IMG/VR virus record: IMGVR_UViG_3300034103_000598
Location: 1-23,239 of that record
Direction: 5' to 3' (one strand)
DNA length: 23,239 bases
Source of the DNA: a virus
Shown: positions 2 to 23,212 of the stretch, in pieces
Position numbering within the stretch: the stretch's first letter is position 1
How the letters are laid out: each line of letters begins with the position of its first letter
Program-made: the position numbers and the translations under genes
The notes under the pieces: model-generated
Database searches by the model: none
Seen by the model: the letters and a program-made list of their open reading frames with translations, nothing else
Told to the model about the DNA's origin: nothing

Positions 2-370
2 TTAGGTAAATTAAAATTACTTACAAGTCCTGGTTTTCACGAAAGAGGTATTGTATCAACAAAAGGGGATTTAGCGGCTAACTATCTTCGTCAAGGTGTA
101 ACATTAGGTATATCTTCTCGTGGTGTTGGGTCTCTTAAAAAAGTTGGTGAACAAAACGAAGTACAGGATGATTTTGAATTAATTTGTTTTGACTTAGTAT
201 CATCTCCATCCACGCCAGGAGCATATCTTTTCAGAGATAAAGACGAAAGAATGAATTACGAAGAGAATTTAGATGAGGAGAAAAAAATGCAAGCCGAAAG
301 ACATATTGGTGAAACAGGATCAAAATCACTTGACTTAATGAATAGATTGTCCGATTATTTGAATAAATAA
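2..370 (+). CDS. Prohead core protease (T4 gp21-like), 3' part only
   Basis: The open frame enters from the left edge and gives the last 122 residues of a phage prohead protease. In the T4 family this serine protease sits in the prohead core and cleaves scaffold, capsid and internal proteins after (I/L)-x-E. The visible part carries the family pattern GVTLGISSRGVGSL, with the Ser-Ser-Arg-Gly at 113-124 that contains the presumed nucleophilic serine. It is followed by a D-x-x-SxPSTPGAY stretch resembling the T4 'VNEPSTxGA' segment. The N-terminal part with the catalytic histidine lies outside the window. The tail (about residues 80-122) is charged and probably helical. The neighbours are scaffold and capsid genes in the T4 order 21-22-23. 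It ends with TAA, 6 nt before the next ATG. Confidence 0.85.
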   Translation, partial: LGKLKLLTSPGFHERGIVSTKGDLAANYLRQGVTLGISSRGVGSLKKVGEQNEVQDDFELICFDLVSSPSTPGAYLFRDKDERMNYEENLDEEKKMQAERHIGETGSKSLDLMNRLSDYLNK

Positions 371-688: not shown

Positions 689-698
689 GATATTTATT
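689..698 (+). promoter_or_regulatory. Candidate late promoter box before the scaffold gene
   Basis: GATATTTATT lies between the upstream terminator and the scaffold ATG at 708. The core TATTTATT (691-698) ends 9 nt before the start codon. It is one mismatch from the TATTTATA box found 11-12 nt before three other virion genes here. A new promoter is expected at this place because a strong terminator precedes it. Assignment to the gp55-type sigma factor is inference. Confidence 0.5.
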
Positions 699-707
699 TG
701 ATAATAA

Positions 708-2309
708 ATGAAAAATACAAATATGGCAAATAACCAAAATGTAGTAGAGGATGCTCTTTACCAAATTAGAAATTTGGAAGAGACCTTACAAGAAAATGCA
801 AAAGGAATACTTCAATCGACGATGAGTGAAGAAATCAAACAATTAGTAAAAGAATCTCTTAAAGAATCAAAAAAAGATGAGGAGATTGATGAGCAAGATG
901 AACCCGTAACAGGTGGAGAGGCTGAAATGGACACAGAAACTGAAATGGAAGATGAAGAAATGGACGATGATATGGAGGCTGATGCTGAAATGGAAATGGA
1001 CACTGAAGATTCTGATATGGAAGGTGAAGACGAAATGGAAGATGTGGACATGGAAGGAGACGAAATGGAAGATGAAGAAACTATCGATATGACAGGAGCT
1101 TCTGACGCTGAAGTCTTAAGAGTTTTTAAAGCTATGGGTGATAATGATGGAATCGTTGTGAAAAAAGAAGGTGAGAATACAGTTCATCTTACAGACGGTG
1201 ATAACGAATACATGATCCAATTGGGTGAATCTGAAGAAGATATGAATGAAACAATTTACGAAATAGAAATGGACGGATCCGACGACATGATGGAAATGGA
1301 AGATGACATGATGGAAATGGATGATGACATGATGGAATACGACATGATGGACTCTGACGAACTTGACGAATGGTCTTGGGGTGGTGCTGCAACAGGTGCT
1401 ATCAAAGGCGGTTTAGGTCTTGAAGAAGAAGATGACATGATGGAAATGGATGATGACATGATGGAAATGGATGATGACATGATGGAAATGGAAGCTGAGT
1501 TTGACATGGAAGGTATCATGGAATCAATTAAAAAATCTGTTAAACCAAAAGGTGTTGGAATTGGAAAAGGTCCAAAATTTAGCTATGACAAAAAACCTAA
1601 CATGGGCGGAGGGTTCAATGAAAAAAGAAAAGAAGCTTTTGGAAAAGGAACTAAGGCTATGGGTACAGGTAAAGCTAAATTTGAATATAAAGAAGAAAAA
1701 GAGTGGGGTGGTAACAAAGGTGACTACAAGAGAAGTAAAGGTCACAAAGTAGGTGATAAAGATGGTCACTATAAAGACTATGAAAAGAGAGAAACTAAAG
1801 AAGCTGTGAGAACTAATAGTTATCCTAGAGCTAACAAAGTTGGCAACAGAAAAGGTTCTGACCAAAATGTGAATAGAAAAGAAATTAGACAAAGACCTAA
1901 CACAAGAGTTAACGAAGAAGTTCAATTATTGAAAAATAAAAATGATGAGTACAAAAAAGCACTTGACGTTTTTAGAACTAAATTGAATGAAGTTGCTGTG
2001 TTTAACTCTAATTTGGCATACGCTACTCGTTTGTTCACTGAACATTCAACTACTAAACAAGAAAAAGTTAACATCTTAAGAAGATTTGATAATGTTGAAT
2101 CTTTAAAAGAATCAAAAAATCTGTACAGAGTTATTAAAAATGAGTTAAACTCAACTGGCTCTTCATCAGAACAAAAATTAACTGAGTCAATTGAAAGAAC
2201 TGTAAATAGAACTGTTGAAACAGGATCAGCAGTGAATTTGATTGAATCAAAAACTTATGAAAATCCTCAATTCTTGAGAATGAAGGATTTAATGGGAAAA
2301 ATAAAATAA
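708..2309 (+). CDS. Prohead core scaffold protein (T4 gp22-like)
   Basis: A 533-residue protein between the protease and the major capsid protein, the position of T4 gene 22. Residues 1-65 are helical and charged. About 60-270 is extremely acidic, rich in Met, Glu and Asp, with degenerate DDMMEM repeats. About 272-400 switches to a basic Gly/Lys-rich stretch. From about 401 to the end there is a Leu/Asn/Lys coiled-coil region (VQLLKNKNDEYKKAL onward) that resembles the conserved C-terminal region of gp22-like scaffolds. In T4 this protein fills the prohead core and is degraded by gp21; many I/L-x-E sites are present. T4 gp22 is much shorter (about 270 residues), so the acidic and basic inserts are an expansion. 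The start at 708 is preferred over the ATG at 723 because of the promoter box spacing. The gene ends 30 nt before the capsid gene. Confidence 0.8.
   Translation: MKNTNMANNQNVVEDALYQIRNLEETLQENAKGILQSTMSEEIKQLVKESLKESKKDEEIDEQDEPVTGGEAEMDTETEMEDEEMDDDMEADAEMEMDTEDSDMEGEDEMEDVDMEGDEMEDEETIDMTGASDAEVLRVFKAMGDNDGIVVKKEGENTVHLTDGDNEYMIQLGESEEDMNETIYEIEMDGSDDMMEMEDDMMEMDDDMMEYDMMDSDELDEWSWGGAATGAIKGGLGLEEEDDMMEMDDDMMEMDDDMMEMEAEFDMEGIMESIKKSVKPKGVGIGKGPKFSYDKKPNMGGGFNEKRKEAFGKGTKAMGTGKAKFEYKEEKEWGGNKGDYKRSKGHKVGDKDGHYKDYEKRETKEAVRTNSYPRANKVGNRKGSDQNVNRKEIRQRPNTRVNEEVQLLKNKNDEYKKALDVFRTKLNEVAVFNSNLAYATRLFTEHSTTKQEKVNILRRFDNVESLKESKNLYRVIKNELNSTGSSSEQKLTESIERTVNRTVETGSAVNLIESKTYENPQFLRMKDLMGKIK
1281..1340 (+). 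repeat. In-frame 21-bp tandem repeat (acidic Met repeat), copy block 1
   Basis: Three consecutive units that encode DDMMEM followed by E, D or (in the last, partial unit) a changed DDMMEY. The units begin at 1281, 1302 and 1323, and the DNA core is GAYGACATGATGGAAATG. It lies inside the scaffold gene; block 2 has the same unit. Confidence 0.9.
1431..1493 (+). repeat. In-frame 21-bp tandem repeat, copy block 2
   Basis: Three units starting at 1431, 1452 and 1473, encoding DDMMEMD, DDMMEMD and DDMMEME, nearly identical at DNA level. Block 1 ends about 90 bp upstream, separated by a Trp/Gly-containing segment. Such repeats can change copy number without breaking the frame. Confidence 0.9.
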
Positions 2310-2339: not shown

Positions 2340-4286
2340 ATGGGAGCATTATTAGAATCAGGTCTTGTAGGTAACATCGGGTTGAAACACCTTAAAGTTA
2401 TCAAAGAAGACACAATTAACAAGTGGGACAAATTAGGCTTTTTGGATGGTCTAAAAGGTCACTTAAAAGAAAACGTTGCACAATTATACGAAAACCAAGC
2501 ATCTTACTTGATCAACGAAGCAACTTCTGACGGCCAATCAAACGGAGCGTTCGAAACAGTTGTTTTCCCAATCGTAAGAAGAGTTTTCTCTAAATTGTTA
2601 GCTAACGATATCGTATCAGTACAAGCTATGAACTTACCTATCGGTAAATTGTTCTACTTCGTACCAAGAATCCAAGGATATGCAAACGCATCTTCTGAGT
2701 ATGCTAACTTATATCCTAACTCAACACCTTCTAACAGTACCGCTGGTGGTGACCACTACGCACCTATTGGATCTCCTGAAGCGGTAGCAAACAGTCAAAA
2801 CAATCCTAACCAAGGATACCCTGATAACGACTTCTATTACAAGAAAGATCTTTATGATTTATTCTATGAAGGTAACGAAGCGTCTTTAGATCCTCCAGGA
2901 TTATTTGACTACTCTAAAGGTAAGTGGACTGCAGTTACAGCTACAACAACAATCCAAGCGTGGACAGGTTCTTCGTTGGTTGACGCAGCTATCGGTGCTG
3001 GACAATTGATTCCAGCAGGTAACTACAGAAAAGTTATTGTTAGACTTTGTGGATTCGCAAGTGCAGGAGCAGGTAAATTGATCGGTCCTGATGGTAACGA
3101 AATGGATACTGAATCATTCCTTTCTGACCTTAGAATCTATGCTGCTAACGGGTTCTCAGCTAACACAACTTCACCTTGTAGTGTAACAACAACTACTTTC
3201 AATGGATCTACAGTATATGCACCTCTATTATTTAGAGTTGTAACTCAAATCTACGGTAAAGGTATTGTTAAATACGGAACAAACAAAGCTACTGAATTTA
3301 GAAACGCAGGTGATAACAACACTGAAATATACACACCACCAACAGGTAACGGAGGTAATTACAATGATATTTGTGATGCTAACGGTTGTATTTGGTTAGA
3401 AGTTGACCTTTCTTGTCCTGTATGTGCTGACTGTGACGCTACATCATTAGATGGTTACACAGGAACTACAATTGCATCAGGTGGATCTGCTACTTCATTC
3501 ACTGCATGGTATAGAAGATATGCTAACCTTGAGTTCGAAGATCAAATTGGTGAGGTTTCTTTTGACCTTGAGTCAGTAACTGTATCTGTTACAGAAAGAA
3601 AACTAAGAGCACAATGGTCTCCTGAATTAGCTCAAGACGTTGCAGCATTCCATAACATCGACGCTGAGGCTGAGTTAACAGCATTGTTATCTGAGCAAGT
3701 AGCAGCTGAGATTGACCGTGAAATCTTACGTGACTTACGTAAAGGTGCGGCATGGCAATTACGTTGGGATTACAACGGATGGAGAAGAATCAACAACCAA
3801 GTATCTTACACTCAAAAAGACTGGAACCAAACATTGATTACAGCAATCAACCAATTGTCAGCACAAATCCACAAATCTACTTTGAGAGGTGGTGCTAACT
3901 GGATCGTTGTTTCATCTGAGGTTTCTGCTATCTTTGACGATTTAGAATACTTCCACGTATCTAACGCGGCTCCTGAGCAAGATCAATACAACATGGGTAT
4001 TGAAAGAGTTGGTACATTATCAGGTAGATACCAAGTTTACCGTGATCCTTACTTCCCACCAAACCAAGTTTTGATTGGACACAAAGGAACATCATTGTTA
4101 GACACAGGTTACATCTACGCTCCGTATGTACCTCTACAATTGACACCTACAATGTACAACCCATTCAACTTTACACCTATCAAAGGTATTATGACACGTT
4201 ACGCTAAGAAAATGGTTAACAACCGTTTCTACGGACGTATCACAGTTGATGGAGTTAGAACATTCGACTTGAGAGAATTGAGATAA
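2340..4286 (+). CDS. Major capsid protein (T4 gp23-like)
   Basis: A 648-residue HK97-fold major capsid protein of the T4 type. Recognisable segments are SVQAMNLPIGKLFYFVPR (about 93-110), the run F-D-L-E-S-V-T-V-S-V-T-E-R-K-L-R-A-Q-W-S-P-E-L-A-Q-D near 408-433, then H-N-I-D-A-E-A-E-L and the E-I-D-R-E-I-L-R helix, and YAPYVPLQLTPTMYNP near the C-terminus. Residues 1-60 form the delta region removed at maturation; YLINE/ATSDG, with cleavage after Glu60, matches the I-x-E rule and the position of the T4 cut (Glu65). It is longer than T4 gp23 (521) because of a large insertion at about 115-390 with a Cys cluster (345, 350, 359, 362, 365). Codon choice leans to C-ending codons (AAC, TAC, ATC), unlike its neighbours, which fits very high expression. 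Confidence 0.95.
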   Translation: MGALLESGLVGNIGLKHLKVIKEDTINKWDKLGFLDGLKGHLKENVAQLYENQASYLINEATSDGQSNGAFETVVFPIVRRVFSKLLANDIVSVQAMNLPIGKLFYFVPRIQGYANASSEYANLYPNSTPSNSTAGGDHYAPIGSPEAVANSQNNPNQGYPDNDFYYKKDLYDLFYEGNEASLDPPGLFDYSKGKWTAVTATTTIQAWTGSSLVDAAIGAGQLIPAGNYRKVIVRLCGFASAGAGKLIGPDGNEMDTESFLSDLRIYAANGFSANTTSPCSVTTTTFNGSTVYAPLLFRVVTQIYGKGIVKYGTNKATEFRNAGDNNTEIYTPPTGNGGNYNDICDANGCIWLEVDLSCPVCADCDATSLDGYTGTTIASGGSATSFTAWYRRYANLEFEDQIGEVSFDLESVTVSVTERKLRAQWSPELAQDVAAFHNIDAEAELTALLSEQVAAEIDREILRDLRKGAAWQLRWDYNGWRRINNQVSYTQKDWNQTLITAINQLSAQIHKSTLRGGANWIVVSSEVSAIFDDLEYFHVSNAAPEQDQYNMGIERVGTLSGRYQVYRDPYFPPNQVLIGHKGTSLLDTGYIYAPYVPLQLTPTMYNPFNFTPIKGIMTRYAKKMVNNRFYGRITVDGVRTFDLRELR

Positions 4287-4558: not shown

Positions 4559-4566
4559 TATTTATA
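4559..4566 (+). promoter_or_regulatory. Candidate late promoter box in a divergent spacer
   Basis: TATTTATA ends 11 nt before the plus-strand ATG at 4578, the same spacing as the boxes before 6873 and 8365 on the minus strand. Read on the other strand it is TATAAATA, 15 nt before the minus-strand ATG at 4543, so one box could serve both genes. Confidence 0.5.
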
Positions 4567-4577
4567 ATTATAATATA

Positions 4578-5522
4578 ATGGATAGATTAAATCAAATAAT
4601 TAAAAGAGTTATTAAAGAGGCCACTTCACAAAGAGGAGGTTCCGCAGGTGCATACGTTACACCGGTACAACCAGGATTTAGACCTTTTAGTAAAGATAGT
4701 TTAGCACCATTTAACATATCTGTTTCTAAATATGATAACCCATTAGTCCAATACGATAGTTTAGATCATAAAATGGATTTAAGAAAAGACCAAATTGCAA
4801 AATTAGAAAAAGAAGCAAATGATATAACTAATTTTATGAGAAAACATCCTGATTTAGCAACAGGAGATGATGACGGTGGTGTTATAAACCAATATATGTA
4901 TAATCATAAAACACCTAAAGGGGATAGCCCAATGAGACCTTTCACAAAAAAAGTAAAATTTAATGAGTGGGTTGATTTATCTTATGATAATTTATTATCG
5001 GAAATTAGTTCCACTGTTACAGCAGGATTATATAATGCACCATTAGAAATTGGTAAATTAGAGTGGAAAAAAAATGAATTAGATCCATTTACTGAAAAGG
5101 TTATGACAGACTTTAATAAAAAATCATTAAAGAATACCTTGAAAAATAATATTAAAAGAAACGTTGGTGTTTGGGAAAAAAATAAAGATGGTTCATATAA
5201 AAGAGATATTGACTACCCCGAGACAATCAATGAAGATTTAGCTGTTTGGTTTGGTAAAAAGAAGAAACCTAAGGGATCTTCTCAACCAAAAGGACCTTGG
5301 GTGAACATTTGTCGTAAAGTAGACGGAAAACACCCTCCCTGTGGACGACACGACACTTCTAAAGGTTCATACCCAAAATGTCGTGCCGCAGGAGTTGCTG
5401 GTAAGATGTCAGATTCGGCTAAAAGATCTGCTTGTCAACAAAAGAGAGCTGCTGAAAAAAAAGACACTCAAACTGGTAAAGGTCAAAAACCTATTATGAC
5501 TTCTTACAAACCTAAAAAATAA
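4578..5522 (+). CDS. Putative internal virion protein with a capsid-targeting N-terminus and Cys/Lys-rich C-terminal module
   Basis: A 314-residue protein. The ATG at 4578 is chosen over an in-frame ATG at 4527 because the earlier one would overlap the neighbouring gene's start and the promoter box. The N-terminus MDRLNQIIKRVIKE/ATS aligns without gaps to the N-terminus of the protein encoded at 6008-6481 and ends in an I-K-E site followed by ATS, as in the capsid protein (INE/ATS). That is the pattern of T4 internal proteins, which carry a short capsid-targeting peptide cut off by gp21. The middle is mixed charged sequence. Residues about 239-314 form a basic module with four Cys (245, 255, 268, 286), including HPPCGRHDTSKGSYPKC, a small domain I associate with marine phage proteins. 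Packaging into the head and DNA binding are inferred. The stop abuts that of the convergent gene. Confidence 0.75.
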   Translation: MDRLNQIIKRVIKEATSQRGGSAGAYVTPVQPGFRPFSKDSLAPFNISVSKYDNPLVQYDSLDHKMDLRKDQIAKLEKEANDITNFMRKHPDLATGDDDGGVINQYMYNHKTPKGDSPMRPFTKKVKFNEWVDLSYDNLLSEISSTVTAGLYNAPLEIGKLEWKKNELDPFTEKVMTDFNKKSLKNTLKNNIKRNVGVWEKNKDGSYKRDIDYPETINEDLAVWFGKKKKPKGSSQPKGPWVNICRKVDGKHPPCGRHDTSKGSYPKCRAAGVAGKMSDSAKRSACQQKRAAEKKDTQTGKGQKPIMTSYKPKK

Positions 5523-5936
5523 CTATTGTTCAGATATTTTATTATAAACTTTAACTAAAGAGTTTTTAATATTTGATTTTACTTCAGCCTCAGTAAGGTT
5601 TCTTCTTTTTTCAGTTTCAGTGTCATATAAATAAGTAACACGCTCAAAATCTCTACTACTCATTTTGACATCATAATGAAATACATGATTAGTAATCTCA
5701 ACTCTACCAAAATCAATAAGAACAAAAAGACCTAATTCTTCATTTATAATGTACCTCTTACTAGACATTGGTGCAATCATGAAATCAGATTTTTTATGTG
5801 ATATCATTTTCACAACAATCTTGAATGCGGTTTTTTCATAAGGTTCTATTTCTTCATGAGTTGGCATAGATTTTCTCATTCTTCTCGCCATTTTGACCTT
5901 AAATCTTTTGTAGAGTCTTTTAAAAAAGTTTTTCAT
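5523..5936 (-). CDS. Hypothetical basic protein with a host-type promoter
   Basis: A 137-residue protein I do not recognise. Residues 1-25 are strongly basic (MKNFFKRLYKRFKVKMARRM), an amphipathic, membrane- or nucleic-acid-binding type of start. The rest is alpha/beta, with hydrophobic strands (KIVVKM, LGLFVLIDFGRVEI) and a charged C-terminal helix. It is transcribed against the internal-protein gene; the two stop codons are adjacent (TAA then CTA) with no terminator between them. A Bacteroidota-type promoter lies directly upstream, unlike the virion genes on either side, so it may be an early gene placed among late genes. Confidence 0.65.
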   Translation of the reverse strand: MKNFFKRLYKRFKVKMARRMRKSMPTHEEIEPYEKTAFKIVVKMISHKKSDFMIAPMSSKRYIINEELGLFVLIDFGRVEITNHVFHYDVKMSSRDFERVTYLYDTETEKRRNLTEAEVKSNIKNSLVKVYNKISEQ

Positions 5937-5960
5937 AGTTAGTTTTTGTTTTTCTAACTA
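5936..5960 (-). promoter_or_regulatory. Inverted repeat over the expected transcription start
   Basis: TAGTTAG (5936-5942) pairs with CTAACTA (5954-5960), with an 11-nt A/T loop. It lies between the -7 element and the ATG of the minus-strand gene, so it could be an operator or a hairpin in the leader at the start codon. No protein partner is known. Confidence 0.4.
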
Positions 5961-5989
5961 CAAATATATAAAAAAATATTGATTAACAA
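5961..5989 (-). promoter_or_regulatory. Bacteroidota-type housekeeping promoter
   Basis: On the minus strand TTG (5989-5987) is followed after 18 nt by TATATTTG (5968-5961), which fits the TTG / TAnnTTTG consensus of Flavobacteriia and Bacteroides primary sigma factors. It sits 24 nt before the ATG at 5936. This suggests expression by unmodified host RNA polymerase. Confidence 0.55.
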
Positions 5990-6007
5990 AAAGGAAGTTA
6001 AAAAAAT

Positions 6008-6481
6008 TTAACAATATGCTCCTGAGCATCTCTTTTTACCGTCCAATCCAGGTTTGGTTCCTTTACATACCTGAACTGCGTATCCGTTGGCGTACGCCGA
6101 AGGGTAAACGTCAAACTTAGCTTTAGCTGCAGCTTTTCCTCTTGCACAAAGCTTTGTTCCTGTTTTTTTTCTACCTTCCATCATAACATTATCTTTCATC
6201 TCAGCATCAAATTCAGAATTTGTTTCATTCATTAAAAAATCAAAAACTTGGTCTAAATTGTTTTTTGCTTCTGCGATATGATCTTGAGCCCAATCATGAC
6301 CTTGATCTAATATTTCTTCAATCGTATTATGATCCATTTCTAAAAGTAGATCACATTGTCTTTTCATTTGTTCTAAATTTGAAAAGAACATATACCTTGA
6401 AGATTCTTTTTCTTGTCTAGAAGGTTTGTCACCTATATTTTCTTGGATAACTTTTCTGATAATCTTATCTAAACTATTCAT
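6008..6481 (-). CDS. Putative internal virion protein with a capsid-targeting N-terminus
   Basis: A 157-residue protein. Its N-terminus MNSLDKIIRKVIQE/NIG shares the pattern M-x2-L-x2-II-[KR][KR]-VI-x-E with the protein encoded at 4578-5522, ending in an I-Q-E site suited to the gp21-type protease. After this come an acidic helical part (about 25-110) and a basic C-terminal module (about 105-157) with KLCARGKAAAKAKFDVYPS, then A-Y-A-N-G-Y-A-x2-V-C-K-G and a final Cys pair (R-C-S-G-A-Y-C). I have seen this type of module in hypothetical proteins of marine phages. It starts 2 nt after the stop of the Cys-rich gene at 6484. The role as an internal, perhaps DNA-bound and co-ejected protein is inference from the N-terminus and basic tail. 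Confidence 0.75.
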   Translation of the reverse strand: MNSLDKIIRKVIQENIGDKPSRQEKESSRYMFFSNLEQMKRQCDLLLEMDHNTIEEILDQGHDWAQDHIAEAKNNLDQVFDFLMNETNSEFDAEMKDNVMMEGRKKTGTKLCARGKAAAKAKFDVYPSAYANGYAVQVCKGTKPGLDGKKRCSGAYC

Positions 6482-6483
6482 AA

Positions 6484-6873
6484 CTAAGAGTATAATCCGT
6501 TCATTCCTCCTAACTCAACCGCATTTGCCTGAACAACGACCTGTCCATTTAAACCTGTCCAAATAGGATGAGGAGTCGATACCGAATTTACGGTTGATCC
6601 TGTCCCACAAGGACAACATATAACACAAGCTTCATATGGTGTTCCTGCAGTTATAAAAGTTGTGATAGTTTGTAAACAAGGTCCACAACCACTATATTGT
6701 GTCATTGCGGAAAAATTTGGTGTTCCTTGTGATGCTTGTACAACTGTACCACATATAATTTGCCCATTAGCACCACTGAAAGCCCAAGTTTGACCTGGAC
6801 TTAAAGTTTCTTCTCCCGATTCACCAAGAACGTATTCTTCATCAGTACATAAAAGTATTTGGAATGTTGACAT
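6484..6873 (-). CDS. Cys-rich small protein, probably virion-associated
   Basis: A 129-residue, Gly/Thr-rich, probably all-beta protein with eight cysteines (9, 41, 63, 66, 83, 86, 87, 89), including CGPC and CVICCPC. The family is not recognised. Beta-rich composition, a candidate late promoter 12 nt upstream and its place between virion genes suggest a small structural protein such as a tail, fibre or decoration component. The clustered Cys could bind zinc or form disulfides once outside the cell. There is no signal peptide. It is followed after 2 nt by the internal-protein gene at 6481, so both are likely on one transcript. Confidence 0.7.
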   Translation of the reverse strand: MSTFQILLCTDEEYVLGESGEETLSPGQTWAFSGANGQIICGTVVQASQGTPNFSAMTQYSGCGPCLQTITTFITAGTPYEACVICCPCGTGSTVNSVSTPHPIWTGLNGQVVVQANAVELGGMNGLYS

Positions 6874-6885
6874 GTCTTTTTTATA

Positions 6886-6893
6886 TATAAATA
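6886..6893 (-). promoter_or_regulatory. Candidate late promoter box
   Basis: Minus-strand TATTTATA (6893 to 6886), 12 nt before the ATG at 6873, in the 25-bp gap between two virion genes. Confidence 0.5.
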
Positions 6894-16706: not shown

Positions 16707-17153
16707 TTATTTAACAAATCTTTTAGTGGATTCTTGTTCGTAAATCCTTGTTCTTAAACTACTTGTAGAAAAGTCATGATCTCTTTTGTTATAAATAAAT
16801 CTTATGTTTCTTTTCATACAAATATCTTTTGCAGTGAAGTTTTTATCTTTGTACTCTTCACCAATAATTCTAACATCAATATCTAAAGACGAGAATATGG
16901 TTTTTAATTCTTCCTCATTATTATAAGGTATAATTTTATCCACATATTGAACTGCGTCCAATTGAATGTACCTCTCAACTAAAGATTGGATGGGTTTGTT
17001 TTTTTCGGGTCTGTCTAATGATGGGTCTACTTGTAGAGCACATATTAGGTAATCACAATATTTTTTACATTCTTCTAACATTATTATATGACCTGCGTGA
17101 AGGAGATCAAATGTCGAACAAGTAATACCTATAATTCTGTTTTGTTTATCCAT
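16707..17153 (-). CDS. Cytidylyltransferase-like nucleotidyltransferase (TagD/RfaE type)
   Basis: A 148-residue nucleotidyltransferase. It has ITCSTFDLLHAGH with the HxGH motif (19-22), LVERYIQLDAVQYVDKIIPY (58-77), D-V-R-I-I-G-E-E-Y-K-D and STSSLRTRI (129-137), the counterpart of the ISTTxLR signature. Such enzymes join CTP or ATP to an alcohol or sugar phosphate, as in CDP-glycerol or ADP-heptose synthesis. The first motif has Cys-Ser-Thr rather than the usual G-x-F/T-F-D, a small change. It overlaps the GDP-fucose synthase gene by 8 nt. The activated product is unknown; no matching kinase is visible here. Confidence 0.85.
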   Translation of the reverse strand: MDKQNRIIGITCSTFDLLHAGHIIMLEECKKYCDYLICALQVDPSLDRPEKNKPIQSLVERYIQLDAVQYVDKIIPYNNEEELKTIFSSLDIDVRIIGEEYKDKNFTAKDICMKRNIRFIYNKRDHDFSTSSLRTRIYEQESTKRFVK

Positions 17154-18063
17154 TTTTTCTTACAATACTATAATTGTTTTCAAAAAATTCAATAGTTTCC
17201 TTCAGACCTTCATAGAATGGTGTGAATTTAAAGTTTGGTAGATAATTTTTAATTTTAGTATTGTCTGATGGTTTTCTAAACTGTCCATCGGGTTTTGAGG
17301 AGTCAAAAATTACATCCCCTTTAAAGTTCATTAATTCGGTAATTACATTAACAACCTCTTTGATCGATATTTCTTCAGAAGTTGATAATATTATTGGTTC
17401 ATTTTCGTTGTAGTTATATAAAACCCATTCGGTCAGTTTTGCAACATCTTTACTAAATATAAATTCACGTAAAGGTTTACCTGACCCCCATATCTTAAGT
17501 GGTGTTTTATTTTCTCTTGCCAAATAACACTTGTGAATTAATGCCGGCAACACATGACCATTTTCAAGATCATAGTTGTCATTTGGTCCATAGATGTTTG
17601 TTGGGATAACAGATTTATAATTTAAACCGTATTGTTCGTTGTAAGCCCTAATTTGAACGTCCGTCATTCTTTTTGCATACGCATAAGCATTGTTAGAAAA
17701 ATGTGGTTCACCTAAGTGAATCTTTTTTTCTGTTAGTGGGTAATCCACTTTGTCAGGAAAAACACAAGTCGATAAAAATGCCACTAAATTTTTTACGCCT
17801 GAAAGTCTCGCACCCTCAATTACATTTGTGTTCATCATTATGTTATTATAAAAGAATTCTCCTTTATAATTCATATTAGCACCAACACCACCAACTTTAG
17901 CAGCACAATGTATAATACCATCAAAGCCTTTCAACATTAGTCTGTAGGTTTGATCTCTATCGATCAAATCATATTGTTTTGAGGATGGTTTAAAATATTG
18001 GTCCCCAATAAATTCAGAACCTACTAATCCATTCCCACCTGTAACTAATATCTTATTTCCCAT
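17146..18063 (-). CDS. fcl: GDP-L-fucose synthase
   Basis: A 305-residue short-chain dehydrogenase/epimerase that turns GDP-4-keto-6-deoxy-mannose into GDP-L-fucose with NADPH. The nucleotide-binding motif GGNGLVG is at 9-15. The family segment HCAAKVGGVGANM is at 52-64, LSTCVFP (97-103) carries the catalytic Ser, and YAYAK (127-131) the Tyr and Lys. NIYGPNDNYDLENGHVLPAL and GSGKPLREFIF are specific to this enzyme. The length matches E. coli fcl (321). It overlaps the gmd gene by 11 nt, in the usual gmd-fcl order, so both steps are co-expressed. Confidence 0.93.
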   Translation of the reverse strand: MGNKILVTGGNGLVGSEFIGDQYFKPSSKQYDLIDRDQTYRLMLKGFDGIIHCAAKVGGVGANMNYKGEFFYNNIMMNTNVIEGARLSGVKNLVAFLSTCVFPDKVDYPLTEKKIHLGEPHFSNNAYAYAKRMTDVQIRAYNEQYGLNYKSVIPTNIYGPNDNYDLENGHVLPALIHKCYLARENKTPLKIWGSGKPLREFIFSKDVAKLTEWVLYNYNENEPIILSTSEEISIKEVVNVITELMNFKGDVIFDSSKPDGQFRKPSDNTKIKNYLPNFKFTPFYEGLKETIEFFENNYSIVRKNG

Positions 18064-19030
18064 AATATTCTACCCAATATTCAATCATTTCATCTAACAT
18101 AGTCTCAAAAGTATATTCAGGTTGCCATGACAACTCTTTTCTCAATTTAGATGAATCACCTTTTAAATTTTCTAATTCTTCAGGTCTAAAATGTTTTTCA
18201 TCAATAACAATATGGTCCATATAATCTAAACCTAATGAGCTGAAAACATAACTACATAGATCTTGAACAGAGTGAGAAACCCCTGTTGCACAAACATAGT
18301 CGTCAGGTTTATCTGATTGTAACATTAACCACATAGCATAAACATAGTCTTTTGCGTGACCCCAATCTCTAGTTGCAGATAGATTACCAATATTTAGTTT
18401 ATCTTGTAAACCAAGACTAATTCTAACCGCAGCTTTAACAACTTTGTTAGTCACGAAATTAGTCCCTCTTCTTGGGGACTCGTGATTAAACAAAATACCA
18501 TTCCAAATCTTCATCCCGTAAGAATTTCTATAGTTTCTACAGATATTGTATGAAAATACTTTGGCACACCCATATGGTGATACGGGATTCATTGCTGTAG
18601 TTTCTCTTTGGTATCCGTCTTCGTCAATTGTATTTCCAAACATTTCAGAGGAAGATGCTTGATATATTTTTGAGTGTGGTGAAACCAATCTAACGGCTTC
18701 TAATAAATTTAATGTCCCAACACCTGTAACATTTGTTGTATAGATTGGTTGGTCAAAACTAATTCTAACATGAGACTGTGCAGCTAAATTATAGACCTCA
18801 TCTGGCTGTACCATTGATAATACTTTAACTAAAGATGCCATGTCTGTTAAATCGGCATATTCAAGATGGATTAAATTTCCATCCCTTAAACTTTCAATCC
18901 TCGAAGATTGTGTTTCAGAAACAGAATTTCTTTTTACTGTTCCCCATACTTCATAACCTTTTTCTAAAAGTAATTCGGCAAGATATGATCCGTCTTGTCC
19001 GTTTATTCCTGTAATTAATGCTTTTTTCAT
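18053..19030 (-). CDS. gmd: GDP-mannose 4,6-dehydratase
   Basis: A 325-residue extended SDR enzyme for the first step of GDP-fucose synthesis (GDP-D-mannose to GDP-4-keto-6-deoxy-D-mannose). It has GINGQDG (8-14), the family segment VYNLAAQSHVRISFDQP, SSSEMFG (126-132) with the catalytic Ser and Glu, SPYGCAK (Y153, K157) and the specific NHESPRRGTNFVTNKV and ATRDWGHAKDYVYAMWLML. It appears complete, though somewhat shorter than E. coli Gmd (373). The start codon overlaps the stop of the DegT-like gene by 4 nt. The GDP-mannose must come from the host or from phage genes outside the window. Confidence 0.95.
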   Translation of the reverse strand: MKKALITGINGQDGSYLAELLLEKGYEVWGTVKRNSVSETQSSRIESLRDGNLIHLEYADLTDMASLVKVLSMVQPDEVYNLAAQSHVRISFDQPIYTTNVTGVGTLNLLEAVRLVSPHSKIYQASSSEMFGNTIDEDGYQRETTAMNPVSPYGCAKVFSYNICRNYRNSYGMKIWNGILFNHESPRRGTNFVTNKVVKAAVRISLGLQDKLNIGNLSATRDWGHAKDYVYAMWLMLQSDKPDDYVCATGVSHSVQDLCSYVFSSLGLDYMDHIVIDEKHFRPEELENLKGDSSKLRKELSWQPEYTFETMLDEMIEYWVEYYGK

Positions 19031-19662
19031 TCCTTAACTTTACAATTTTTAAAAATATCAAACTCAGTTAAATCTCTATACCCATTATTTTCATCTAAAT
19101 CTGATTTATGTTCAGGATAATTTTGCATCAAACATAATCCATGTGCCGCTTCTTGAGGCGTCATATACATATTCCACCCTATTGTATTGATATTATCTTC
19201 TTTATAATAAACTTCATTTCTACCTTCATATCTGGATTTTCTAAACCATTTTGCTGCTTCCTCATCGTCTGTCAATATCATCCCACCTTTACCAATACCT
19301 AAATTTTTTTTGATGTGAAATGATAAACACATAAAACTATTTTTTATAAACATATTAGATGTAAATCTTTTAGCGGAGTCGTATATTGGATAAGGTTTTA
19401 GTTGGTATAACCCTGACCAATGGTTGGTTTTTGGGGTCTTATCAAAAACTACACTTCCGCCAGCATTTATGATACTCATAGGTACTGATAGATAAGTTTT
19501 GGATGGGATAGTTACTTCTGTAACATTCAGGTATTTACAACATAAAAAAATAGCGTTTGTACAACTATCGACCGAAATTGCAAATTTAGCACCTGTATAT
19601 AGTGCTACTTCTTCTTCAAACATTTTTACAATGGTATACGGGTTGTGTTTTTTAATTGGCAT
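19027..19662 (-). CDS. Short DegT/DnrJ/EryC1-type PLP protein
   Basis: A 211-residue protein matching the N-terminal, PLP-binding part of sugar aminotransferases of the DegT family: F-E-E-E-V-A-L-Y-TGAKFAISVDSCTNAI, a TIPSKTYLSVPMSI strand-turn, YDSAKRF (the D-A-A-Q site), and SFHIKKNLGIGKGG, in which Lys119 matches the Schiff-base lysine. Typical members have 360-400 residues; the C-terminal domain is absent, and the protein ends with E-F-D-I-F-K-N-C-K-V-K-E. It could be a real minimal enzyme, a domain working with another subunit, or a decayed gene whose frame stays open. It is translationally coupled on both sides (overlaps of 11 and 4 nt), which argues against decay. It would make a dideoxy- or amino-sugar nucleotide. 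Confidence 0.8.
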   Translation of the reverse strand: MPIKKHNPYTIVKMFEEEVALYTGAKFAISVDSCTNAIFLCCKYLNVTEVTIPSKTYLSVPMSIINAGGSVVFDKTPKTNHWSGLYQLKPYPIYDSAKRFTSNMFIKNSFMCLSFHIKKNLGIGKGGMILTDDEEAAKWFRKSRYEGRNEVYYKEDNINTIGWNMYMTPQEAAHGLCLMQNYPEHKSDLDENNGYRDLTEFDIFKNCKVKE

Positions 19663-20338
19663 TTTTTCCTATATAAAATCCTGTTATATAATTTTTTTCT
19701 AAAAATGGTAAACCATGACTAAACATATTATTAAATTCGTCACTTTCAAAAATGTTACCGACTATTTTGTCATTTAAAAAATAATCATGAGACCACAATA
19801 CTTTTAGGTTATTAAATTTTTTTAATAAACGTAGTTCTTTTATTACATGATCATGGTCATGACAACCATCCTGTACTACAAAGTCATATGTATTATTTTC
19901 AATTAAAAATTGTAAAGAGTCGGAAATAATTTTATTAAATGGATATAAATTTTCTATATTACTATCAGGATAATCAATTATATCTATAGTGTCAATCTCA
20001 CATGGATAACCATCAAGATCATTGTTTTTACATGCTAATAAAATATGTTCAGTTCCACAACCTTTATGTGTACCTATTTCTAAAATTTTTTTTGGTTTAG
20101 TAAGTCTTATTGTGTTATACAACATTTTTAATTCTCTACGACCCGCACTATTATAATCTAAAGTATTTTCCCACCCATTTAAATTATTTTCATTTATCCA
20201 TTTATTAAAATTTTCTATTTCACATTCAGGAAACAATCGTTTGAATCCATCCCAATATTCACTCAACATGATATTTTCATCTTCGGTTTTTTCAGTCCAA
20301 GTGACTCCGAAATTTTTTTGCATTTCTAATATTGTCAT
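19652..20338 (-). CDS. Class I SAM-dependent methyltransferase
   Basis: A 228-residue protein with the SAM-binding motif ILEIGTHKGCGT (85-96), an acidic end of strand 2 (E-I-D-T-I-D-I), and FVVQDGCHDHDHVIKEL (153-169), the latter reminiscent of the Methyltransf_24/macrocin or CmcI-like group that methylates sugars and small molecules. Residues 1-80 are an N-terminal helical addition. Substrate unknown; a sugar or glycan hydroxyl is likely from the neighbours. It overlaps the acyltransferase gene by 4 nt and the DegT-like gene by 11 nt. Confidence 0.8.
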   Translation of the reverse strand: MTILEMQKNFGVTWTEKTEDENIMLSEYWDGFKRLFPECEIENFNKWINENNLNGWENTLDYNSAGRRELKMLYNTIRLTKPKKILEIGTHKGCGTEHILLACKNNDLDGYPCEIDTIDIIDYPDSNIENLYPFNKIISDSLQFLIENNTYDFVVQDGCHDHDHVIKELRLLKKFNNLKVLWSHDYFLNDKIVGNIFESDEFNNMFSHGLPFLEKNYITGFYIGKNAN

Positions 20339-21114
20339 TTTTTTGGTATAAATTTTATTAGTTTATTTTGTAAATCTTTCATAAATAAGATTTCTTCGTC
20401 GGTTCCTTTTTTGGTGTACGTTCTGTCAACAATATTAAAATAACTAAATTCATCTGAAATTATTTCAGAATCATTTTCAATTAGTTTTATTTTTTCAGAT
20501 AATTTAAACTGACTCATTATTTTTCTTCTTTCATGAATTGTAATTTCTCTAAATTGTGGCGTTATTTTATCTGTTAAATCTTTGGCTGGACTACCCCCAT
20601 AAATATGGTTAAATTCCATATTTTTTGTAATCACACTACCAACAAGAGCCATAGATTTGTCTTCGGCTATTATAGGAGATACAACACAATGACCAACAAA
20701 CCAAACGTCATTACCGATAATTAATTTTTTTTCTGATTCGTAATTACACCCCTCCAAAGGGTCCCCATATCTAATATGACTCCATAATTGTGAATATGCC
20801 CCAATACCACAATTATTACCAATTGTGACACCCCCAATACTATCTATAATAGTGCCTTGTCCTACCCATGCGTTATGACCTATCGACAATGGTTTATACC
20901 CATGAATATTACTGTGGTGATGTATTTTACAATAATCACCAATTGTTAATTCATCAATAATTATTTGGACATTGTCACCAATATAAGTGTTATCTCCTAT
21001 TACAATTTTTTTTGAGTTACCATTCAGTCCTCTAATTGTTGCACTTTCAGAAATAAAAACATTTTTACCTAATATTAAATTATCAACGTGGATATTGTTC
21101 ATATTTTTTTTCAT
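20335..21114 (-). CDS. Left-handed beta-helix acyltransferase (hexapeptide repeat)
   Basis: A 259-residue protein with at least ten hexapeptide turns ([LIV]-G-x4), for example IVIGDNTYIGDNVQI, LTIGDYCKI, LSIGHNAWVGQGTII, VTIGNNCGIGAYSQL and LIIGNDVWFVG. H-H-H at 65-67 may hold the catalytic histidine. The end of the helix is IYGGSPAKDL (171-180), typical of the sugar O-acetyltransferase type. A charged C-terminal helix follows (181-259). ATG at 21114 gives a 32-nt overlap with the upstream gene; the ATG at 21102 (MNNIHVDN) would cut it to 20 nt and is equally possible. It probably transfers an acetyl group to a sugar in the phage glycan. Confidence 0.85.
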   Translation of the reverse strand: MKKNMNNIHVDNLILGKNVFISESATIRGLNGNSKKIVIGDNTYIGDNVQIIIDELTIGDYCKIHHHSNIHGYKPLSIGHNAWVGQGTIIDSIGGVTIGNNCGIGAYSQLWSHIRYGDPLEGCNYESEKKLIIGNDVWFVGHCVVSPIIAEDKSMALVGSVITKNMEFNHIYGGSPAKDLTDKITPQFREITIHERRKIMSQFKLSEKIKLIENDSEIISDEFSYFNIVDRTYTKKGTDEEILFMKDLQNKLIKFIPKK

Positions 21115-21886
21115 ACCAAAAATCAGTTTTTATCCATTCATTTTTTACATTATGGGGGTTAATTTCCTTTTGAATAAACCCAATTTTTTTAGACTCATCA
21201 TTAATAATCTGAACAATTTCGTCTATATCAACTTTTACTTGACTCCCTTCTCTTAAATAATTTTTTAATCCTATTATTGATGGGAATTTATAAGGGGAAC
21301 TCATAACCGTTTTAATTCCCATTAAACCTAACTCTCTAACTGTAGTATAACCATGTTTACCTGATAAATTTAAACTTAAAAAACATTTATCATAATAATT
21401 TGTTTTTAGGTTTTCTAATGTATCGTAATATTTTGCATCACTAACCTCACCACCAAAAATTATTTCATAATTAATCTTTTTTTGAATTTCTAATATTATA
21501 TTTTTTTGAAACTCGATGGGGTCCCTCATATATGAATAAATTTTATCACCCAAAATTTTAGGTTTAAATATTGAATAATCTTGGTACTCAAATTCAATAT
21601 TAGCAAATTTATAGTTTTTAATAGGTTTTAATAATGGATCATTTATTATGAATAAATTATCAGAATTTTCTATATCATTTAAAGTTTCACAATCTGATGG
21701 AGTTATAAACTTAATAATTTTTAACCCTCTATGATCATTAATTTTTTTAATTTCACCAAGACCACCCCAAAAAAAGCAAGGACTGTTAATATCATAATAA
21801 TCAACAAATCCGTATCTTTTTTTTAGTCTATCCGAAAATGGATAGATGCCATGATTGGCCACGTTTATTTGTTTTATTTTTTTCAT
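21083..21886 (-). CDS. Probable glycosyltransferase, C-terminal GT-B-like part
   Basis: A 267-residue protein that I recognise only weakly. The C-terminal part (about 165-205: C-F-L-S-L-N-L-S-G-K-H-GYTTVRELGLMGIKTV) resembles the donor-binding region of GT-B transferases, where a G-x-x-x-x-R-E-L/E-A-x-x-x-G-x-P pattern is usual. The N-terminus (N-H-G-I-Y-P-F-S-D-R-L-K-K-RYGFVDYYDINSPCFFWGG) is compatible with a short Rossmann domain. It lies between a GT9-like gene and an acyltransferase, 4 nt downstream of the first. Alternatives: a sugar-binding or adaptor protein of the glycan system. Confidence 0.6.
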   Translation of the reverse strand: MKKIKQINVANHGIYPFSDRLKKRYGFVDYYDINSPCFFWGGLGEIKKINDHRGLKIIKFITPSDCETLNDIENSDNLFIINDPLLKPIKNYKFANIEFEYQDYSIFKPKILGDKIYSYMRDPIEFQKNIILEIQKKINYEIIFGGEVSDAKYYDTLENLKTNYYDKCFLSLNLSGKHGYTTVRELGLMGIKTVMSSPYKFPSIIGLKNYLREGSQVKVDIDEIVQIINDESKKIGFIQKEINPHNVKNEWIKTDFWYEKKYEQYPR

Positions 21887-21890
21887 AAAA

Positions 21891-22589
21891 TTAATTAAAT
21901 ACGGTATATTCTAATTGACTAGTTGAGTCATTAAACAAGTCATTATTTCGTTTTACCTCATTCAACATATTAATGTGGTAAAAAATATTTGTTTTACGCA
22001 ATTTTAACGAATCAAATATTAATCTAAATGAACTATCAATAAAATGAGATTCAACACTATGTTCCATTAAATAACAATAATCAAAAACATTATCAGTTAA
22101 ACCGATTTTTGGTCTGATAATTGGTAAATCTTTGTTAATTATTTTGTCTTGATTTACATTGTAATTTCTAGTATAGTCGTCGTGAATAAAAATGTATTCA
22201 TTTTCAACAACATTAAATTTGTTAAATAATTCTTTTTCTGATTTTAAATCTCTCTCAACATAAAAGTTTTTCCACCTGTTTTCAAATGGGATATTATTTT
22301 GCATATAAAAACTTTCATCAAAACCTTTTGCGTCAGGATGTCTATAAAATCCGGCAACAATTAAATTATCACGATTTAATTTATTTTCAACTATGTAATT
22401 TTTTGCGTAGTTATCGTCTCCAACTAAAAAACTTAAATTTTTTAAATCTCTGTACATTGATGTAACAGTTGTTAAATTGTGAGATTTAACAAACATTTTA
22501 TATTCCTCATTTTTGTTAATAATCGTTCTAACTAAACCATTACATATTATATGATCCCCTAAACCTAAATGGTGGTATATATATTTCAT
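21891..22589 (-). CDS. Probable glycosyltransferase (GT9-like)
   Basis: A 232-residue protein. The start MKYIYHHLGLGDHIICNGLVR resembles the G-L-G-D-x motif near the N-terminus of heptosyl- and related GT-B transferases. The later stretch C-Y-L-M-E-HSVESHFIDSSFRLIFDSL resembles the acceptor/donor-side helix of GT9 proteins (H-x-D-S-x-F). The similarity is partial, so a diverged transferase is the best guess. It shares one base (TAATG) with the upstream GT31-like gene, a tight coupling, and ends 4 nt before the next gene. Confidence 0.6.
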   Translation of the reverse strand: MKYIYHHLGLGDHIICNGLVRTIINKNEEYKMFVKSHNLTTVTSMYRDLKNLSFLVGDDNYAKNYIVENKLNRDNLIVAGFYRHPDAKGFDESFYMQNNIPFENRWKNFYVERDLKSEKELFNKFNVVENEYIFIHDDYTRNYNVNQDKIINKDLPIIRPKIGLTDNVFDYCYLMEHSVESHFIDSSFRLIFDSLKLRKTNIFYHINMLNEVKRNNDLFNDSTSQLEYTVFN

Positions 22590-23212
22590 TATTTACAAGA
22601 ATTATAAAGTTTATCCATTTCGTCAAAATGTTTAACATAATGGAATGTAATGTATTCGCAACATTCATTAATTTCTAAATTAAAAAATAAAGGGTTTTGT
22701 GATCTGAACCTAAAATCATCGATACTTATTATACCCAAATCTCTTAATTTTACCCCTAAAGTAACATCAGCAAATCCCGTATTAGTTACCTCAATTGTTT
22801 TACAAACTTCAGATAATATTTTTTTACTTATCAAATACCCCGCACCTCCAGAACAATAAGTAAGGTTAAGATCTAAAGGCCAAGTCCCTTTCAATACCGA
22901 CCCATGTACCACATCATCACTGGCCGTTTTTGTGTAATCAATCAAATTATCAACATTAACAAATGTATCGTCATCACAGAAAAAGAACCAATCATAATCA
23001 GTCTTATTATCGTTAACATATTTTAATACGTTTATATGTTTTTCTTCATTTGATTCATAATGTGTTTTATCAGATACTTTAATTATATTTTTTTCTAAAT
23101 CTTCGTGATCCGAATAAAAAATATGATCAATATCTTTACCCCATGTTTTTATGACATTATCATATCTATTTGGAAACATGGATCCGTGTAATATTAAAAC
23201 TAAAATTTTCAT
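22589..23212 (-). CDS. Fringe/GT31-like glycosyltransferase
   Basis: A 207-residue GT-A transferase of the Fringe/beta-1,3-galactosyltransferase type. The core is YDWFFFCDDDTFVNVDNL (73-90), with the DxD metal site at Asp80-Asp82, then YCSGGAGYLISKKIL (119-133), FADVTLGVKLRDLGI (147-161), where Asp149 fits the catalytic base, and a closing F-H-Y-V-K-H (191-196) like the metal-binding His of Fringe. Fringe adds GlcNAc in beta-1,3 linkage to O-fucose; other GT31 members use galactose. Donor is unknown here. Without a signal peptide it would act in the cytosol. Start ATG at 23212; upstream sequence ends at the window edge, so the preceding gene is not visible. It is the first gene seen in the minus-strand train. 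Confidence 0.8.
   Translation of the reverse strand: MKILVLILHGSMFPNRYDNVIKTWGKDIDHIFYSDHEDLEKNIIKVSDKTHYESNEEKHINVLKYVNDNKTDYDWFFFCDDDTFVNVDNLIDYTKTASDDVVHGSVLKGTWPLDLNLTYCSGGAGYLISKKILSEVCKTIEVTNTGFADVTLGVKLRDLGIISIDDFRFRSQNPLFFNLEINECCEYITFHYVKHFDEMDKLYNSCK

Follow-up and report, generated by a model that had tools for sequence, protein, structure and literature searches.

A portable N-terminal tag on unrelated proteins of uncultured T4-like phages is a probable capsid-targeting sequence

Head genes and two proteins with a shared start

The window analyzed here is the entire virus record IMGVR_UViG_3300034103_000598 (23,239 nt), and the whole-genome set of tags lies beyond its reach. Its gp23 gene, prohead protease gene and a gene in the scaffold position identify an uncultured T4-like phage, whose relatives in IMG/VR are up to 296 kb long. 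The best matches of gp23 among catalogued phages showed only 43-46% identity over part of the protein. The features referred to below are the following.

2..370, plus strand: C-terminal part of a gp21-type prohead protease (window translation; complete copy in a close relative, L082)
691..697, plus strand: TATTTAT element 5' of the scaffold-like gene
708..2309, plus strand: scaffold-like gene in the gp22 position, between protease and gp23 as in T4
2340..4286, plus strand: major capsid protein gp23 (Pfam Gp23, E=3.1e-73)
4559..4565, plus strand: TATTTAT element 5' of gene A
4578..4619, plus strand: short-form tag of protein A, MDRLNQIIKRVIKE, followed by ATS (from the sequence)
4620..5522, plus strand: body of protein A, 300 aa (from alignment; weak match to phrog_23735 at residues 241-297)
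6008..6439, minus strand: body of protein B (from alignment), a helical core (RYMFFSNLEQ...) and a basic Cys-containing C-terminal module
6440..6481, minus strand: short-form tag of protein B, MNSLDKIIRKVIQE, followed by NIG (from the sequence)
6887..6893, minus strand: TATTTAT element 5' of gene 6484-6873, which sits 2 bases ahead of gene B on the same strand

The complete protease of the close relative (L082:7378-8106) belongs to Peptidase_S77 (E=1.5e-22; 80.5 bits against a Pfam cut-off of 27). The propeptide of gp23 is predicted to be cut at INE60↓ATS, between 2519 and 2520, the site named in the initial annotation, and INE↓(A/S) was conserved in 81 of 81 distinct relatives. The product of 708-2309 had no family match and was assigned as a scaffold by position alone; it contains long Met/Asp/Glu-rich repeats (DDMMEMEDDMMEMDDDMMEYD...), which are odd for a scaffold. 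At the other end of the window, 16707-23212 on the minus strand holds a long run of sugar-metabolism-like and glycosyltransferase-like genes, one of them GDP-mannose dehydratase-like by eye.

Genes A and B begin at 4578 (plus) and 6481 (minus), where the initial annotation had placed them. Their 14-residue starts align without gaps, with the identities it had listed (M1, L4, I7, I8, V11, I12 and E14), and their bodies proved unrelated, as it had claimed. The ends of the two tags, IKE in A and IQE in B, do fit the proposed (I/L)-x-E rule, and each protein is predicted to be cut after E14 (in A, between 4619 and 4620). E14 of protein A was invariant in 22 aligned homologues, which continue past the tag with AT(S/G)D, resembling the capsid site INE↓ATSD. 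The body of protein A ends in a Cys/Lys-rich module and has internal LxE sites at its module joints, LSE142↓ISSTV and INE219↓DLAVWFG, and the homologues likewise have LxE at module joints (INE↓DLAVWFG; LSE↓ISSTVTAG). Several of them carry a second tag at the C-terminal end (LTENDLTRIVKRVLNEDTNKI in L030, YIVNRVLSEIRNSF in L042), and in L014 and L123 an extra domain lies behind this second tag. We infer from this arrangement that protein A may be a chain of cargo units with protease sites between them.

Residues 108-150 of protein B matched phrog_27331 (E=2.7e-15). AlphaFold2 predicted a separate N-terminal helix (residues 2-16) and core helices at 22-87, at modest confidence (pLDDT 63.5), and this model had no significant match in the PDB; the model of protein A was mostly of low confidence (pLDDT 41.3). 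The helical core of B also occurs in LR756502 (642 kb; L235:4737-5204; 44% identity over residues 24-89), where another start (MENIKSFDSFNEKKW) and another basic module flank it. The basic Cys-containing C-terminal modules of B (108-150) and A (241-297) recur in Pelagibacter, Synechococcus and Prochlorococcus phages, and A-type and B-type modules adjoin within about 400 bases in HTVC023P and HTVC027P.

Abundance, portability and conservation of the tag

A strict motif, [LIVM]2[KR]2[LIVM]2xE, had exactly two matches in the six frames of the window, both being the starts of A and B. When the residues of the 28 gene starts in the window were shuffled, the best pair had at least six non-Met identities in 276 of 5000 trials. 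Because an equally good pair arises in 5.5% of shuffles, the window pair alone is not convincing, its resemblance being barely beyond chance (p about 0.05). Across relatives the shared start is not chance: in five genomes of 229-296 kb (G002-G006; 1594 ORFs called), 49 of 52 matches to the strict motif lay in the first 30 residues of an ORF, against about 6 expected by residue share.

A looser definition of the tag yielded 84 tagged ORFs in the five genomes, a handful of them doubtful, with bodies in 66 BLAST clusters. A tighter count by class gave 39 long-form, 36 short-form and 6 related ORFs, about 16 per genome, the short form being MxxLxxIIKKVIKE (about 14 residues) and the long form MKKIIRLTESDLTRIVKRVIKE (about 22). 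The long motif was also found inside longer proteins of G002 and G003. When viral contigs were scanned for the long form, at least 386 of 600 listed candidate stretches were confirmed, and the loci kept contained at least 128 long-tag ORFs in at least 87 body clusters. Among homologues of protein B (80 distinct starts), either the short or the long form precedes the same conserved body, with a linker of variable length; on the tree of this body, which is poorly resolved, the form changed at least 12 times, 3 of these changes being forced by well-supported branches. The 66 body clusters and the exchange of forms on one body bear out the earlier proposal of a transferable tag, not full-length homology. 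The tag also serves as a search key for candidate cargo, as had been suggested, but the pattern put forward, M-x2-L-x2-II-[KR]2-VI-x-E, is too narrow, since neither the long LTESDL form, present in about one third of protein B homologues, nor a tag lying C-terminally or between fused domains is caught by it.

The Glu of the predicted cut site is near-invariant. P1 was Glu in 74 of 74 canonical tags of protein B homologues, although the aligning pattern itself includes that Glu; six further starts outside the canonical pattern also end in xE, and P3 is hydrophobic, mostly L or I. In 155 long tags the invariance of Glu 9 and Glu 22 is partly imposed by the search pattern; a search that did not require Glu found the second Glu in 84 of 146 LTES-like starts, many of the remainder belonging to another leader class. 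Synonymous codons differ widely at the conserved residues of the 155 long tags, which therefore points to selection on the peptide. An N-terminal excess of (L/I)xE over shuffled starts was seen in the five relatives (z 3.8-6.0), in Flavobacterium phage vB_FspM_immuto (3.7) and, weakly, in T4 (2.2), and was absent in P-SSM2 (z 0.7) and crAss001 (z 1.3).

Few of the tagged bodies could be named by searches of Pfam, PHROGs and NCBIfam. The named ones are a phage lysozyme (G003), a weak DHH match (G004) and one LysM protein, with leucine-rich-repeat proteins in several genomes. PHROG tape-measure families matched single members, and one further body is lysis-enzyme-like by eye. Pfam families for terminase, capsid, tail and replication proteins were absent from the tagged sets scanned.

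Further leader classes in G002-G006 (L162-L232) are associated with TATTTAT, namely MKIIITESQY (53 ORFs) and MKKFLITEEEKxRILGMH...LxEQ (14 ORFs), and a rarer leader reads MNLQExIxRIKxMMGL. In LR756508 (484 kb), an array 3' of gp23 (L234:15721-20411) has starts of an LxE-ending flavor (MRLKEILLE, MKLKGILKE, MRLKNVLLKE) and a YxRGT-like motif in several proteins, none of the array proteins having a Pfam or NCBIfam match. A guess that the tagged proteins at this position are Alt-like ADP-ribosyltransferases was dropped, family searches having given it no support.

Upstream element, protease and comparison with known systems

TATTTAT, usually 10-25 nt 5' of the start, was found ahead of 58 of the 84 tagged ORFs and of 398 among the 1510 others (p=3e-15). 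Single transcription is commoner among tagged genes, and a second tally therefore took in only genes whose own upstream gap was 50 nt or longer. The element was then found at 24 of 26 long-form and 13 of 15 short-form genes, against 142 of 464 genes with no tag or leader (87-92% vs 31%), and at 15 of 16 genes of the ITESQY class and 8 of 9 of the ITEEEK class. In G004 it also lies 5' of the terminase, portal, protease and scaffold genes, and in the window 5' of the scaffold gene, gene A and the gene immediately upstream of gene B. These positions suggest that TATTTAT is a late promoter.

The Peptidase_S77 gene lies next to gp23, and the family was present in all six large relatives examined. 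Of 18 further records chosen by the long tag alone, 16 also had it, a rate that refers to tag-bearing records only; the two virus records in which it was missing may be fragments. No S77 was found in five Bacteroidota MAGs with tag-like starts, which are fewer and mostly weaker there. In Bacteroidales MAG contigs such starts occur singly or paired, and at L357:4343-5603, L362:4481-5273 and L365:111-1541 they head divergent gene pairs (for example MKKVIRLTESDIHRIVKNSVKKVLTEL and MNTLDNIIKESIDNIINEG). Transposase-like ORFs resembling one another (MINFAKFNNII..., MIDFSKFNSII...) occur in L357, L361 and L362. Phage remnants are one possible identity of these Bacteroidales loci, satellite-like elements another.

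In T4, IPIII needs no more than its first 10 residues to be packaged, and gp21 cuts after L/I-x-E (PMC9026906). Our T4 controls showed ipII and ipIII starting MKTYQEFIAE↓A, and Alt starting MELITELFDE after one further Met in the called ORF. Like the capsid-targeting sequences (CTS) of IPI-III and Alt, the tag is a short N-terminal leader that is portable among unrelated proteins, the T4 leaders ending in L/I/F-x-E, and as in T4 a Peptidase_S77-family protease is encoded beside the scaffold and gp23 genes. A CTS is expected to span some 10-19 residues and to end in L/I-x-E; the 14-residue window tags fall within this range and the long form (about 22) slightly exceeds it, and both portability and an S77 protease in the same phage were found. 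The tags that protein A homologues carry C-terminally or between domains recall T4 Alt, which is processed at both ends (PMC9026906).

Unlike MKTYQEFIAE, the tag is basic, I/V-rich and 14 or 22 residues long; it has two interchangeable forms, heads roughly 16 genes per genome as against a few in T4, and also lies between fused domains. The T4 sequence (MKTYQEF or MELITEL) is not shared: the short tags differ by eye, and the long-tag profile gave E=0.06 for a 34-codon frame in the T4 record. With tag residues so unlike the T4 CTS, common descent of the two is therefore unsupported. The long-tag profile found nothing significant in immuto, T4, P-SSM2, crAss001, phiST or RM378, and one moderate match in LR756508 (E=9e-5). 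Bare tag peptides had no match in cultured phages, a result that the short query explains as well as absence does.

Immuto is the nearest cultured, annotated Flavobacterium relative by gp23. Its annotation lists a prohead serine protease, a small gene and gp23, arranged much as in the window, but its protein starts look different (for example MKKSQLRQIIKEA and MENFDLKKFLVEN). A search of the literature yielded no usable proteomics of immuto virions, and the tag sequences were not found in the open-access literature, subscription papers being outside that search. In SPN3US, according to the available part of PMC10052503, head proteins lose N-terminal propeptides to a prohead protease; of nine substrates identified, most have propeptides of 111-254 residues and two have short ones of 20 and 24. 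Such SPN3US/phiKZ-like giant phages thus resemble the phages here in the removal of N-terminal head propeptides by a protease, and differ in that the same part of that paper describes no portable shared tag.

A probable lineage-specific capsid-targeting sequence

We conclude that the shared start is probably a lineage-specific capsid-targeting sequence that works like that of T4 and is cut by the gp21-type protease. Sequence comparison establishes its portability, its near-invariant Glu with a hydrophobic P3, selection at the protein level, the accompanying protease gene and the association with the upstream element. The tag would be a short amphipathic leader, produced alongside late proteins, and would bring its protein to dock on the prohead scaffold, the scaffold-like 708-2309 product being the expected partner. 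The gp21-type protease would then remove the leader after (I/L/V)-x-E, and the body would be left among the packaged DNA of the virion, able to be ejected into the next host cell. As a portable module it would serve many unrelated bodies, in some relatives from a C-terminal position or between fused domains. New here are the scale, the two interchangeable forms and the copies behind or between domains.

An unlikely alternative is that the tag is an uncleaved amphipathic helix with which late proteins dock at the inner membrane or at some other structure, such as the tail or a membrane-bound assembly site. It is basic, hydrophobic and a separate helix in the AlphaFold2 model; one tagged body is a lysozyme, which could equally act in the periplasm or tail, another is the lysis-enzyme-like protein, and late expression suits tail or membrane as well as head. 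A membrane helix, however, needs no invariant Glu two residues past Ile, Leu or Val, and it leaves the match to the gp23 cut site and the copies at LxE joints of fused domains unexplained. We consider it more improbable still that the leader is removed by another protease, of host or phage origin, or is a virion docking peptide unlinked to prohead maturation. The two tag-picked records and five MAGs showing no S77 would agree with this, and cleavage of the tag by S77 is a prediction; yet the site fits the gp21 rule L/I-x-E (PMC9026906) as well as the gp23 site of the phage itself, incompleteness may explain the two virus records, and the MAG matches are weaker. Full-length homology or a DNA-level signal (a translation start or recombination cassette), for which near-identical upstream DNA among some tagged genes of one array might speak, as in duplicated cassettes, was rejected as hardly credible on the body clusters (66 and at least 87), the switching of tag form, the many synonymous codons at conserved residues and the tags at C-termini and between domains.

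With a capsid-targeting sequence as the preferred reading, a broader proposal can be made tentatively: the interchangeable leader classes (short, LTESDL, ITESQY, ITEEEK...H) may form a general head-loading system that fills the head with tens of accessory proteins from each genome. About 154 ORFs in the five genomes belong to these classes taken together, some 30 in each genome; the classes all share the association with the upstream element, and most of them include LxE. If every class counted, the injected protein set of these virions would rank among the larger ones, and a large part of the unnamed genes of such phages would code for head cargo. The tagged bodies are at most candidate effectors, almost none having a recognized function.

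The function of most small genes of large phages is not known. A tag readable from sequence would sort many of them into a head-travelling class before any homology is known, would make the question of injected proteins testable in a widespread environmental phage group, and may serve as a loading signal that is portable and carries a predicted protease site.
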